From positions 1-50,364 of the forward strand of contig NZ_AUPZ01000008.1 in NCBI RefSeq assembly GCF_000445475.1: a DNA stretch of 50,364 nucleotides, read 5' to 3'. The DNA comes from Sulfurimonas hongkongensis. Lineage in GTDB: Bacteria; Campylobacterota; Campylobacteria; Campylobacterales; Sulfurimonadaceae. The notes under the pieces were generated by a model that saw only the letters and a list, made by a program, of their open reading frames with translations, was not told where the DNA came from and did no database searches. Numbering within the stretch: position 1 is the stretch's first letter; each line of letters opens with the position of its first letter. This document shows, in pieces, positions 11,033 to 16,087 of this stretch. Position numbers and translations under genes: made by a program.

Positions 11033-11038
11033 TATGAT
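11033..11038 (+). promoter_or_regulatory. Possible -10 element of the SQR gene
   Basis: TATGAT lies 32 bp upstream of the SQR start, preceded by TG-rich, A/T-rich DNA without a clear -35. That is common for housekeeping promoters of Campylobacterota. The rest of 10924-11070 shows only A/T-rich sequence. Confidence 0.35.
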
Positions 11039-11070: not shown

Positions 11071-12540
11071 ATGGCAAGATTGGTAGTTTTAGGCGGAGGT
11101 GTTTCAGGACATACTGCCGCAACTTTTGCAGCAAAATGGCTGGGTTCATCCCACGAGGTTGTTGTGGTAACCCCAAACGCAAAATGGAATTGGATTCCAT
11201 CAAATATATGGGTTGGTGTTGGACTTATGTCCAAAGAAGAAGTCACTTTTGACTTAGCTAGTGTTTATGCAAAAGCAGGTATCACGTATAAACAAGCAAA
11301 AGCAGTTTCTATAAATCCAGAAGGAGGTTCTTCTAGTGATAAACCTTTTGTAAGTATAGAGTATACACTAGAATCAAGAGAGGGTGATGTTGAAGATGTT
11401 GAGTATGATTATCTCATTAACGCAACTGGACCCAAGCTAAACTTTGCAGCGACTCCAGGCTTAGGAGATGAAAATGGTTTAGGTGAGCATACAGTCTCAG
11501 TTTGTACGGCTGATCATGCAGTTCATGCATCGCAAGAGCTTAAAAAGTGTATACAAAAGATGAAAAATGGCGAGCGTCAAAAGTTTCTGATTGGGACTGG
11601 ACATGGTCTGTGTACATGCCAGGGTGCTGCATTTGAGTATATTTTTAACATAGAGCATGAGCTTAAAAAAGCTGGTGTGCGTGATATGGCAGATATAAAA
11701 TGGATATCAAATGAGTCCTTTTTAGGTGACTTTGGAGTTGGTGGGCTTCATATGAAAGCTATGGGCTTTGCTGTAAGTTCAAGGATATTTGCAGAATCTT
11801 TATTTGCCGAGCGTGATGTAGATTGGATTATCGGTGCGCATGTTTCTAAGGTAGAAGCTGGTTCCGTTGATTACGAACTACTTGATGGCTCTGTTGGTAA
11901 AGAGTCTTTTGACTTCTCAATGTTAATTCCACCATTTGCAGGTGTTGGAATCAAAGCATACAGCAAAGATGGCGAAGATATTACAGCTGAACTTTTTGCT
12001 CCAAATGGATTTATTAAAGTTGATGCTAACTACTCTGCTGGTGCGTATGAAAATTGGAAAGCTAGTGATTGGCCCGCAACTTATCAAAATCCAACTTATA
12101 CAAATATATTTGCATGCGGTATCGCTTTTGCACCTCCGCATCCAATTTCAAAACCGATGAGTTCTCCAAGTGGAACTCCTATCAACCCTACGCCACCTCG
12201 TACTGGTATGCCATCTGGTATAATGGGCAAAACAGTTGCTCACAGTATTTGTGATAGAATTTTAAAAGGAGAAGATGCTCCATTGCATAGAGCTTCTATG
12301 GCTGAGATGGGTGCTGCTTGTGTGGCATCTGCTGGTAAAGGAATCTTTGATGGTACCGCAGCTGCTATGACTATATACCCTGTTGTCCCTGATTTTGACA
12401 AGTATCCTGGGACTGGCCGTGATACGGACTATACTTTTGGTGAGATTGGTCTTGCAGGTCACTGGATAAAACATATCTTACACCATCTCTTTATGTATAA
12501 AGCTCAACTTAAACCAGGTTGGACGCTCATTCCAGAGTAG
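11071..12540 (+). CDS. sqr: Sulfide:quinone oxidoreductase-type flavoprotein
   Basis: A 489-residue FAD protein of the SQR/flavocytochrome c sulfide dehydrogenase family. The dinucleotide fold starts at once (LVVLGGGVSGHTAA). Candidate redox cysteines fall at ~147 (VCTADHA), ~181/183 (GLCTCQGAAFEY) and ~349 (IFACGIAFAP), in the order expected for the sulfide-oxidising Cys and the disulfide pair. The tail HWIKHILHHLFMYKAQLKPGWTLIPE is amphipathic, as in membrane-attached SQRs. It would oxidise sulfide to sulfane sulfur and reduce quinone. I use ATG 11071, preceded by AAAAGGAG, rather than an in-frame TTG at 11038. The subtype within SQR is uncertain. Confidence 0.8.
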   Translation: MARLVVLGGGVSGHTAATFAAKWLGSSHEVVVVTPNAKWNWIPSNIWVGVGLMSKEEVTFDLASVYAKAGITYKQAKAVSINPEGGSSSDKPFVSIEYTLESREGDVEDVEYDYLINATGPKLNFAATPGLGDENGLGEHTVSVCTADHAVHASQELKKCIQKMKNGERQKFLIGTGHGLCTCQGAAFEYIFNIEHELKKAGVRDMADIKWISNESFLGDFGVGGLHMKAMGFAVSSRIFAESLFAERDVDWIIGAHVSKVEAGSVDYELLDGSVGKESFDFSMLIPPFAGVGIKAYSKDGEDITAELFAPNGFIKVDANYSAGAYENWKASDWPATYQNPTYTNIFACGIAFAPPHPISKPMSSPSGTPINPTPPRTGMPSGIMGKTVAHSICDRILKGEDAPLHRASMAEMGAACVASAGKGIFDGTAAAMTIYPVVPDFDKYPGTGRDTDYTFGEIGLAGHWIKHILHHLFMYKAQLKPGWTLIPE

Positions 12541-12558: not shown

Positions 12559-12652
12559 GTGCTGACGTAGATATCGGAATTATTTCCGATATCGTGATAA
12601 TTAAAAGGGAGGAATTCCCTTAAATTTATAAAATAAATTAAAGGATAAGAAA
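12559..12652 (+). promoter_or_regulatory. Two-hairpin leader, copy A (before the SQR-linked small gene)
   Basis: Hairpin 1 is GATATCGGAA (12570-12579), loop TTAT, TTCCGATATC (12584-12593): a perfect 10-bp stem. Hairpin 2 is AAGGGA (12605-12610), loop GGAAT, TCCCTT (12616-12621). Then follow TTATAAAATAAA, a ribosome site in AAAGGATAAG and the ATG at 12653. The same order of parts with changed but still paired stems precedes rpoZ (41310-41407). It could be a riboregulator, a processing site between SQR and downstream genes, or an attenuator. No known riboswitch class was recognised. Confidence 0.55.
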
Positions 12653-12817
12653 ATGTCAAAATATAGCGAAAAAAATATCAAAGCATATGGAAATAACTTT
12701 ACTACAATGACACCAGGTCCAGTGGCGAAGTTTTTAAGAACTTGTGTTATATATCAGTTTATAAGATTTATTGTCATAAATCTTAAGATGTTAGTAGTGG
12801 TTAAAAAAAGTCATTAG
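12653..12817 (+). CDS. Small membrane-associated protein linked to SQR (54 aa, unknown)
   Basis: A 54-residue gene starting MSKYSEKNIKAYGNNFTTMT. The second half (VAKFLRTCVIYQFIRFIVINLKM and following) is hydrophobic with interspersed arginines, and the protein ends VVVKKSH. That fits one membrane-embedded or interfacial helix with a basic tail. A ribosome site AAAGGATAAG lies ~8 bases upstream, and codon use is like its neighbours. It lies 112 bp after SQR and 19 bp before the deformylase-like gene, so the three are probably one transcript. A role in anchoring or assembling SQR at the membrane is a guess from position. Confidence 0.7.
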   Translation: MSKYSEKNIKAYGNNFTTMTPGPVAKFLRTCVIYQFIRFIVINLKMLVVVKKSH

Positions 12818-12836: not shown

Positions 12837-13673
12837 ATGGTAAGAGAGATTACTACTTATCCAACACCACCTAGTGTAGAATACTCAACAGATGTAAGAG
12901 TTGTGACTAAAGAGATATTATCTATTATACAAGATTTAAAAGATACTATAAAAGAGAACTCTCTTGAGGCACTAGCTGCATTTCAAATAGGTGAGATGTA
13001 TAATATTATTGTTATTAAAAAAAAAGATTCATTTTTTAAAATTGGTGAGGATGATGAGTATTTAGAATTAATAAATCCTAGAATAATAAGTACTAGCGAT
13101 AAAATAACAACGGTAGAAAGAACAGCTTATTTCCCTGATTTGAGTGCAAAAGTACAGAGACATAAGAATATTTCCATCATATATGAAGATGTAAATCTTA
13201 AACAACATACTCTAAAGGCAACTGGCGAAGAGTCTATCTTGCTTCAAAGAAAAGTGGACTATACCTTTGGTTCATCTTTTATAAATAAGTTATCAAAAGA
13301 AGAAAAGAAGCTTTTTGTTAAAAAACTTGAGTTTGGAAGCGACATCGCAATTTCAGAAAATTGTCCGACAAGCTTTAAAAGAGATTATCTTATAAAGATT
13401 ATAAATATCATCATGATAGCTATGGCTTTATTGGTTATTGTCTCTTTGTTTGTATCTAACAAGAGCACATTAGATAGCATATGGTCTTATCAGCTTAATA
13501 TTTTTTATGTTGCTTTTGGGCTGTTGATATTTTATTTCTTCTACGCCCAATACGAAGGAAAGCAATTTACCTCTTGTACTAGTTGTCAGATAGGAAATAT
13601 AATTGGTACAAGTGTCATAATGCTTGTAAAGTTATTACTTATAATGTTAATATCATTTTTTGTAATAAATTGA
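12837..13673 (+). CDS. Membrane-anchored peptide-deformylase-like pseudoenzyme
   Basis: A 278-residue protein. Residues 1-~165 follow the peptide deformylase fold: MVREITTYPTPP start, LEALAAFQIGE where GxGLAAxQ is expected, ERTAYFPD where EGCLS is expected, and LQRKVDYTFGSSFINKL where LQHExDHLxG is expected. All three metal ligands (Cys, His, His) and the catalytic Glu are replaced, so deformylase activity is very unlikely. Residues ~187-278 form about three membrane helices with a CTSC motif between the second and third. It sits downstream of SQR and the 54-aa gene behind AAAAAGG. A binding or regulatory role at the membrane is inference. Confidence 0.75.
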   Translation: MVREITTYPTPPSVEYSTDVRVVTKEILSIIQDLKDTIKENSLEALAAFQIGEMYNIIVIKKKDSFFKIGEDDEYLELINPRIISTSDKITTVERTAYFPDLSAKVQRHKNISIIYEDVNLKQHTLKATGEESILLQRKVDYTFGSSFINKLSKEEKKLFVKKLEFGSDIAISENCPTSFKRDYLIKIINIIMIAMALLVIVSLFVSNKSTLDSIWSYQLNIFYVAFGLLIFYFFYAQYEGKQFTSCTSCQIGNIIGTSVIMLVKLLLIMLISFFVIN

Positions 13674-13703: not shown

Positions 13704-13796
13704 ATGTCAAGTAAAAATAGCAAAAAGCGATTCTTTTGTTTGATTCAGGATGCAATTGATAATTATTCAGAGCATTCAACTAGCAAATTTTACTAA
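13704..13796 (+). CDS. Possible 30-residue leader ORF coupled to the hybrid kinase
   Basis: ATG 13704 opens a frame of 30 codons starting MSSKNSKKRFFCLIQDAIDN. Its stop overlaps the kinase start as TAATG at 13794-13798, an arrangement typical of translational coupling. The kinase itself lacks a good ribosome site. No Shine-Dalgarno motif is visible before 13704 and the peptide is unlike anything I know, so chance remains possible. Confidence 0.3.
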   Translation: MSSKNSKKRFFCLIQDAIDNYSEHSTSKFY

Positions 13797-16087
13797 TGAA
13801 AGAAATGAAAATGAAGATACCAAACTTAGTTGAGTCACAAGAGACATTTGTAAATGCTAAAGAACGGATACTTCTACAATGGCTCTCTTATGACTCCCCA
13901 CAGCAGATTTTAGAGCAACACAAGATAGAGATAGATTTTTTTTTAAAAGAGTATGCTAGTGGAGTTTTTGATTATTTTATGGGAGTTATTGCAGGAGAGT
14001 TAGAGATTGGAAATTGTCCTATCATGCAAGGACTTTTAAGTTATCTAAAAGATAGAGAAATTAGTGCGGATGAACTTTTTGAAATTTGTAGTCATTTCCG
14101 CCGCTCTATGATAGAGTTTTCTTATGATGAAAAACTTGACTCAAAAGAGATGTCAAATGAAATTTCATTTGTTTTTGATAAAAACTTTAGAGGTATTTTA
14201 AAGTACTACACAGATACTATTTTTGAAAAACTCATATATGCAAGACAAAAAGCAGACAAAGCATCACAGGCAAAAGAGTATTTTTTGTCAAATATGTCGC
14301 ATGAGATTAGAACACCATTAAATGCGATACTTGGCTTTGTAAATCTTCTCATAGATGAAGATGTTTCAAAAATACATAGAAACTATCTCGACATTATCTT
14401 AAATAGTGGTGAAAATCTGCTTTGTATCATAAATGATATTTTGGATTTTTCAAAGCTAAGAAGTGGAGAGTTTACTATAGAGCCTAAAATCTTTTCACCA
14501 CATGATGAGATAAGTCACACAATGGAGCTTTTTGTTGCAAGTGCAAATGTGAAAAATATCACTATCACCTCTTTTATAGACCCACGTATCCCAAAAGAGC
14601 TCTATGCAGATGCACTTAGAATGAAACAGGTTTTATCAAACTTTTTAAGTAATGCTATAAAATTTACCCCAGATGGTGGACATATAAGCGTAGAGTCTTT
14701 TTGTAAAAATGGTACTTTAAGCATTAGTGTAAGTGATAGTGGGATAGGTATAGCAAAAGAAGATGTGCAAAACATCTTTTTAGCCTTTGCTCAAGCACAG
14801 CATTGTGAGCTAAAAAACTCCTCATCTGGGACAGGTTTGGGGCTCTCTATCTGCCATCAGCTAGCACAACATATGCAAGGGAGTGTTGATGTTGAGTCTA
14901 TTTATGGAGTTGGAAGTAAGTTCACTTTAAAAATCCCAGTAGAGGCTAAAAGCGAATTGTGCCCACTCTTAGAAGATGTTAGTGAGTTTAGAACCCTAAA
15001 GATAGCAGTCTGTTCAAAAGAGAGTAAAAATGCATATAAAGAGAACTCCTTTTTGAGATATGCAGATGCTTTTAAGATGGATACAAAAAAGATAAGCTCC
15101 ATGGATGAGGAGTTTGATATAGCTCTTTTTGTTCAAGAGGATGTAGATAAAGAGTTTATACAAATGGCGATAGACTCTGAGAAAAAATTTATAGTCTTAG
15201 CAAATGAGCCAAATGATGATTATGATAAGTATGACAACATAACTTCTATTAGTTTTCCACTCTATTGTTCTAAAATAAGAGGTGCTTTTGATGAAGTTAT
15301 AAATCCACACTCATATATGCCACACAAAAAGCACTCTAACATAAAGTTTAAAGGTCACATCTTAGTGGCTGAGGACAATGAAGCAAATCAGGAGCTTATA
15401 AAGATACTTTTGGAAAAGTACTCTCTAAGTTTTGACTTAGCTAATAATGGACTCGAAGCACTAGAGTTATACAAAAAAAATAATTATGATCTGATACTGA
15501 TGGATGAACAGATGCCACTTATGGATGGAAGTGAAGCTGTAAAACAGATAGCTAGTTATGAGAAAAAAAGAGGCTTAAAACATACTCCAGTCTCAGCATT
15601 GACAGCAAATGTTATAAAAGGAGCCAAAGAGAGAGGACTTCTTAGCGGTTTTGATTCGTTTTTAGGCAAGCCTATTATTTTAAAAGAGCTAGAGAGAGTT
15701 TTAAAACTCTACCTAAAAGAGGATAAACTTAAAGAGGCTAATATGCCAAGTGAATTTCATGAGAGGGTAGTAGGTATTGATGCCATAAAACTAAAAGAGG
15801 AGTTGAAGCTAAATGAAGATGAACTTATGCTGCTTCTTACTCTTTTTATTAAAAAAATGAAAAAACAGATGCCAAAACTTCAAGTTGCCATAGAGGAGAG
15901 AGACTATAAACAAATAGCACTAAATGCTCACTCTATAAAAGGTTCTAGTGGAAACTTTAGGATAGAAGCACTCCAAAAAAGTGCTAGTGAGATGGAGAAA
16001 AAGGCAAAAGAAGAAAATAGTGAGTATGACTATGAAGCAGTTTTTACAAATATAAAAAACAGAGTTAAGCAGATAAGTATTGTTTAA
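13796..16087 (+). CDS. Soluble hybrid sensor histidine kinase (HisKA-HATPase-REC-HPt)
   Basis: A 763-residue protein without membrane segments. Residues ~15-150 form a helical region like the N-terminal domain of RsbR-type proteins. HisKA follows with phosphorylatable H169 in MSHEIRTPLNAILGF, then HATPase_c (NFLSNAIKFTPDGG, SDSGIGI, GTGLGLSIC). Residues ~400-505 resemble a receiver that has lost its acidic pocket. The true receiver begins at HILVAEDNEANQEL with Asp in LILMDEQMPLMDG and Lys in LGKPI. The HPt domain ends it (NAHSIKGSSGNF). This is an in-cis phosphorelay; the signal is unknown. The convergent regulator at 16091-16840 is a candidate partner by position only. Confidence 0.88.
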   Translation: MKEMKMKIPNLVESQETFVNAKERILLQWLSYDSPQQILEQHKIEIDFFLKEYASGVFDYFMGVIAGELEIGNCPIMQGLLSYLKDREISADELFEICSHFRRSMIEFSYDEKLDSKEMSNEISFVFDKNFRGILKYYTDTIFEKLIYARQKADKASQAKEYFLSNMSHEIRTPLNAILGFVNLLIDEDVSKIHRNYLDIILNSGENLLCIINDILDFSKLRSGEFTIEPKIFSPHDEISHTMELFVASANVKNITITSFIDPRIPKELYADALRMKQVLSNFLSNAIKFTPDGGHISVESFCKNGTLSISVSDSGIGIAKEDVQNIFLAFAQAQHCELKNSSSGTGLGLSICHQLAQHMQGSVDVESIYGVGSKFTLKIPVEAKSELCPLLEDVSEFRTLKIAVCSKESKNAYKENSFLRYADAFKMDTKKISSMDEEFDIALFVQEDVDKEFIQMAIDSEKKFIVLANEPNDDYDKYDNITSISFPLYCSKIRGAFDEVINPHSYMPHKKHSNIKFKGHILVAEDNEANQELIKILLEKYSLSFDLANNGLEALELYKKNNYDLILMDEQMPLMDGSEAVKQIASYEKKRGLKHTPVSALTANVIKGAKERGLLSGFDSFLGKPIILKELERVLKLYLKEDKLKEANMPSEFHERVVGIDAIKLKEELKLNEDELMLLLTLFIKKMKKQMPKLQVAIEERDYKQIALNAHSIKGSSGNFRIEALQKSASEMEKKAKEENSEYDYEAVFTNIKNRVKQISIV

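Follow-up and report, generated by a model that had tools for sequence, protein, structure and literature searches.

Introduction

Peptide deformylase is an antibiotic target, and sulfide:quinone reductase (SQR) feeds electrons from sulfide into respiration in the Campylobacterota of vents and sediments. We know of no earlier case of the deformylase fold taking part in energy metabolism. In Bacillus subtilis, the available portion of one study presents DefA as an inhibitor of the kinase PtkA, on which it acts by binding, and ascribes its role in the stress response to protein binding and not to deformylation (PMC11194573). The SQRs of Sulfurimonas, types II to VI, have been reviewed (PMC4584964).

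The window analysed here is a stretch of 50,364 nucleotides from Sulfurimonas hongkongensis, the + strand of which holds at positions 12837-13673 an open reading frame (ORF) of 278 aa that we call pPDF, for pseudo-deformylase. This protein resembles peptide deformylase (PF01327, TIGR00079) in domain sequence and fold, and the ordinary deformylases (defs) of its order form the sister clade. However, pPDF lacks the metal and catalytic residues, carries three predicted membrane helices and a CxxC motif, and is encoded in an SQR operon, not in a translation-related setting. With DefA it would share the condition of a deformylase-fold protein acting through protein binding, although DefA is soluble, a minor but real metal deformylase, and the available portion of the study mentions no membrane part or SQR link (PMC11194573). 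The likeness to the Sulfurimonas SQRs lies in the neighbour of pPDF, an SQR-family protein, whereas the accessible part of the review names neither a small helix protein nor a deformylase-like partner (PMC4584964).

The family is a pseudoenzyme whose fold is known but whose architecture and genomic partner are new, present in many sulfur-oxidising bacteria related to Sulfurimonas and usually encoded beside the SQR gene. No description of the family was found among open-licence papers, and one named public record lists pPDF only as “peptide deformylase” and a small adjacent protein of 54 aa as “hypothetical protein”. Automatic annotation counts this dead family as a functional deformylase, itself an antibiotic target.

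The pPDF protein

The features of pPDF, all on the + strand, are as follows.

12837..13331, +: deformylase-fold domain lacking the metal and catalytic residues, residues 1-165 (Pfam, PDB sequence matches, model, Foldseek)
13122..13124, +: Thr96, replacing the metal Cys of EGCLS (three alignments; 167 homologues)
13248..13262, +: R138-K139-V-D-Y142, replacing H-E-x-D-H (R in 137, K in 131, D in 167 and Y in 136 of 167 homologues)
13362..13364, +: C176, immediately ahead of membrane helix 1 (kept in 160/167)
13386..13454, +: predicted membrane helix 1, residues 184-206 (hydropathy window ~182-212; model helix 181-203)
13470..13550, +: predicted membrane helix 2, residues 212-238, the weakest of the three (hydropathy, model)
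13575..13586, +: C247-T-S-C250 motif, helix 2-3 loop (CxxC in register in 167/167)
13593..13667, +: predicted membrane helix 3, residues 253-277 (hydropathy window ~250-278; model helix 252-277)

The initial annotation had recognised a deformylase domain followed by about three membrane helices with a CTSC motif, and both elements were recovered. PF01327 aligns over residues 2-157 with an E-value of 6.7e-30 and 104.2 bits, above the Pfam gathering cut-off of 22.8, and a single-sequence search of the PDB matched solved deformylases at up to 43.6 bits. With the NCBIfam equivalog TIGR00079 the protein scores 64.2 bits, below the cut-off of 103.95, a failure of enzyme membership that weakens the statement that pPDF is a deformylase, not that it has a deformylase fold. 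Structure prediction, which had been proposed as a check, points the same way: a template-free AlphaFold model built from six sequences (mean pLDDT 69, pTM 0.43, residues 1-21 poor) found peptide deformylases as its best Foldseek matches, these being all 50 matches listed of 580, with a probability of 1.00 and TM-scores by target of 0.54-0.66. The deformylase fold of the domain is thus supported both by the sequence and by this moderate-confidence model.

The metal site had also been described as lost, and this part of the description stands, but the residue assigned to the place of the metal Cys, Ala97, was wrong, since Thr96 replaces it. Residues were counted in 167 distinct homologues among 169 proteins, leaving out the contig-edge fragments L148 and L170. 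Position 96 is T in 118, S in 33, D in 13 and N in 3 of them, and never Cys. The HExxH of motif 3 is absent, with the first His in 10/167 and neither the catalytic Glu (Lys139 in the pPDF of the window) nor the second His in any. The commonest set at the four former active-site places is Thr-Arg-Lys-Tyr (111/167), and residues of the fold are kept: P9, N80, E94, R108 and D141 in all 167, Q137 in 166 and Q50 in 149. Judged from these alignments, the pPDF family is a deformylase-fold pseudoenzyme, whose catalytic residues have been lost family-wide and whose fold residues have been retained. A search for homologues with intact ligands, suggested at the outset as a way to reveal an error, returned none among the 167, and the pseudoenzyme reading extends well beyond this genome. 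A sequencing error or a decayed copy is ruled out, because 167 distinct homologues with long open frames miss the same residues.

In the membrane part, helix 2 corresponds to a weak hydrophobic window at ~219-238 (1.63) and to a model helix at 209-243; no convincing solved relative of this part was found. The mean net charge is +1.9 before helix 1, +1.1 for the helix 2-3 loop and -0.6 for the helix 1-2 loop. These loop charges favour a predicted topology where the stretch before helix 1 and the helix 2-3 loop would be cytoplasmic, with the helix 1-2 loop on the opposite side. The CxxC motif and the near-invariant third cysteine, C176, are accordingly placed by prediction on the same, cytoplasmic side. 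In the 86 proteins with exactly three cysteines, these are always C176, C247 and C250. C176 is present in 123/123 cassette loci (described below) vs 33/40 others, with a Fisher P of 3.5e-5 that overstates the independence of the data, because the seven losses come from only three genera.

A cassette with SQR and a 54-aa protein

Upstream of pPDF lie two genes and downstream a third:

11071..12540, +: SQR-family flavoprotein, 489 aa from the ATG common to relatives (PDB matches to sulfide-quinone reductase)
12653..12817, +: 54-aa protein, conserved beside SQR and ending in a long helix (loci comparison; model pLDDT 68, helix 23-53)
13796..16087, +: hybrid histidine kinase, outside the core cassette and with conservation limited to the window's family

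The ORF list begins the SQR at an upstream TTG, position 11038. The protein belongs with the SQRs by its relation to the solved enzymes and by two cysteines, C145 and C417, that align with those of the 3hyv chain and occur in 83/83 neighbour SQRs; we take cysteines of this type to have a catalytic redox role. The 54-aa protein gave no Pfam or NCBIfam match and no convincing solved relative in the PDB, and its 67 aligned sequences hold eleven invariant positions, the final K-S-H among them.

The neighbourhood was counted in the 163 of 169 loci with at least 1 kb upstream. The SQR and 54-aa genes are just upstream of pPDF in 122 of these loci and neither is in 38; the 54-aa gene alone adjoins pPDF in two (L099, L105), and in the remaining one (L103) SQR is accompanied by a 54-aa frame overlapping the called start of pPDF. 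The gap from the 54-aa gene to pPDF is 10-254 nt, and the spacer from SQR to the 54-aa gene has a median of 29 nt (178 pairs). In L099 and L105 the 54-aa protein is divergent and adjoins pPDF without SQR, an arrangement that hints at what may be a direct partnership of these two proteins.

Some candidate signatures of the cassette did not hold. The Thr-Arg-Lys-Tyr pocket set was ruled out as a cassette mark, being alike in cassette and other loci, and the form of the 54-aa tail (VV-KSH vs LI-KSHH) tracks pPDF only loosely, the other form being found in some pPDF genomes whose genes are unlinked. The window's spacer from SQR to the 54-aa gene contains a perfect 10-pair hairpin (12570-12593, z -3.6). 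This hairpin is not conserved, with 41/105 scored spacers below z -2 and relatives' spacers mostly short and unstructured. Promoter-like sites numbered 25 vs 22.1 expected.

Distribution across the order

The family and order samples are even draws and not all species (1851 genome draws with repeats over all the genome searches), and the order sample comprises 398 genomes. A profile of the membrane part matched 124 of them, or 122 under nine family labels after dropping, before the count, weak matches in 455- and 504-aa frames (G362, G431). The 54-aa profile matched 197/398 genomes, and 194/398 gave an SQR profile match with an E-value of 1e-120 or lower. Both partners are present in 118 of the 122 pPDF genomes; another two have pPDF with the 54-aa gene only, and the last two (G171 and G299) have neither partner, both matches lying at contig starts. 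SQR and the 54-aa protein occur without pPDF in 73/398 genomes, SQR alone in 3, the 54-aa protein alone in 4, and none of the three in 196. Where pPDF is unlinked, SQR and the 54-aa gene are still present elsewhere in the genome. The occurrence of pPDF is nested in genomes having both partners, and the link of pPDF to SQR and the 54-aa protein, which had been no more than a suggestion drawn from one locus, holds in both the neighbourhoods and the genomes. In one genome (G451) the contig that carries pPDF is 3 kb long and the sequence resembles that of the window's family, so that contamination is possible.

The pair also occurs without pPDF. Plasmids of Candidatus Thiodictyon syntrophicum and Marivivens carry an SQR (62% and 59% identity, respectively) followed by a related small protein, which in Marivivens matches the 54-aa protein with an E-value of 1.1e-11. 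The 54-aa protein is in this way also found beside SQR in Gamma- and Alphaproteobacteria lacking pPDF (L203:5998-6156; L264:4986-5144). From these two proteobacterial plasmids and the 73/398 genomes, it follows that SQR does not need pPDF. In Sulfurovum mangrovi, the cassette itself is on a plasmid, where pPDF (L202:6256-7071) is annotated as two short peptide deformylases and this copy appears interrupted.

A bare membrane module

Two genomes of one genus (G282 and G498 of g74) encode a 98-aa protein 4-5 nt after the SQR and 54-aa genes (L207:4551-4844; L208:4264-4557). It has three hydrophobic stretches and a CxxC, and matches the membrane profile of pPDF at E 1.3e-5 and 2.7e-7. Each of the two genomes has one def, of the ordinary kind, and lacks a pPDF domain, and both are among the 73 pPDF-less partner genomes; the third genome of the genus, G473, gave no bare-module match. 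The first order-wide profile of the membrane part missed the 98-aa module. A second profile, built with the two bare modules and therefore finding both by construction, matched 132/398 genomes at E up to 0.01 with no further clear bare module, the extra matches being weak (4e-4 or worse) or contig-end pieces. The bare modules have no Cys at the place of C176. Their existence means that at the SQR locus the membrane CxxC part can occur on its own, with no deformylase domain attached, and, because they occupy the same place, this part, and not the deformylase pocket, looks to be the SQR-linked module.

Origin of the family

The genome of the window has an intact def elsewhere, with EGCLS and QHEIDH, which answers the question whether a normal def accompanies pPDF, and 59/60 sampled relatives gave a PF01327 match. 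In a tree of 34 pPDF representatives and 30 ordinary defs of the order, rooted with three proteobacterial defs, the pPDFs form one clade (34/34, support 100), and EGCLS and QHExDH are kept in 33/33 ordinary sequences. Given this single clade and the intact ordinary defs, the dead branch looks old, probably of single origin rather than a series of recent decays. In phage families and records, the matches to the pPDF domain were only ordinary-deformylase-like.

Possible roles of pPDF

We favour, with a probability of roughly one half, the reading of pPDF as a non-catalytic membrane accessory subunit of the upstream SQR/54-aa pair. It would make physical contact with SQR, the 54-aa protein or both; its cysteines would be the likely working site, as a disulfide, a metal ligand or a persulfide; and the dead deformylase domain would serve as a docking or peptide-binding platform. 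This reading is based on the dead site, the old single origin, the conserved cassette, the nested occurrence, the conserved cysteines and the bare module, together with the 54-aa gene that stays beside pPDF even without SQR. It is weakened by the 73/398 partner genomes devoid of pPDF and by the 38/163 loci with neither partner adjacent, and a strict cysteine triad is weakened by the bare modules. A precedent is found in DefA, which acts by binding PtkA according to the available portion of that study (PMC11194573). A conserved membrane partner and a conserved 54-aa helix protein would add unrecognised subunits to an enzyme that is key to energy metabolism.

A more specific version can be put forward only tentatively. 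A membrane CxxC module of an SQR/54-aa complex would have been fused to a dead deformylase, giving a dedicated sulfide-oxidation subunit whose cytoplasmic cysteines might either accept the sulfane sulfur of SQR or ligate a metal centre, and whose former active site, refilled with Thr-Arg-Lys-Tyr, might bind a partner peptide or an anion. If true, the deformylase fold would, for the first time to our knowledge, have a part in energy metabolism.

Other explanations have to be weighed against the accessory subunit. A kinase/regulator cluster lies directly downstream of pPDF in 74/169 loci and, with families of neighbouring genes assigned from one representative each, second pPDF copies in the window's family are near a MerR-type regulator (16 loci), a CMD/AhpD-like protein (15) or a DsrE-family protein (6). 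The clusters and the MerR-type regulators would suit a sulfur or redox sensor, where the cysteines read the state of sulfide, persulfide or quinone and the cytoplasmic domain signals to a regulator such as the hybrid histidine kinase; however, outside the window's family the cluster is at +1 in just one of 54 loci, L148, which may be a contaminant, whereas the SQR/54-aa link is order-wide, and we consider a sensor unlikely. The CMD/AhpD-like and DsrE-family neighbours, together with the 38/163 loci away from SQR and the 54-aa gene, could instead speak for a membrane or thiol function of its own, with only regulation in common with SQR, an option rendered improbable by the presence of both partners elsewhere in the genomes with the unlinked form.

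Two further explanations look to the deformylase domain itself. Its non-catalytic groove might read N-termini, binding the formyl-Met or other termini of membrane proteins, for instance the 54-aa protein, in targeting or quality control. The retained fold residues and Q50, as well as the refilling of the former active site mostly by Thr-Arg-Lys-Tyr, speak for such a reader, but the pocket signature is alike in cassette and other loci and the bare membrane module sits at the SQR locus without the domain, which leaves this proposal with a small share of the probability. As for a still active deformylase, the name that Pfam and public annotation give to such proteins is countered by the disappearance of the metal Cys, the Glu and the second His from 167/167 homologues, by a score under the equivalog cut-off (64 vs 104 bits) and by the coexisting intact def, and we give it almost no credence.

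Other genes near pPDF

Some additional neighbours were observed. In second-copy loci such as L053:2526-5467, the CMD/AhpD-like protein has a CxxC, and the DsrE-family protein near second copies has an N-terminus that by eye resembles a signal peptide. In one group of loci, L078, L101, L108 and L112, a 162-aa lipoprotein-like protein with no Pfam match is encoded downstream of pPDF, in some of them also with a permease-like protein of ~365 aa.
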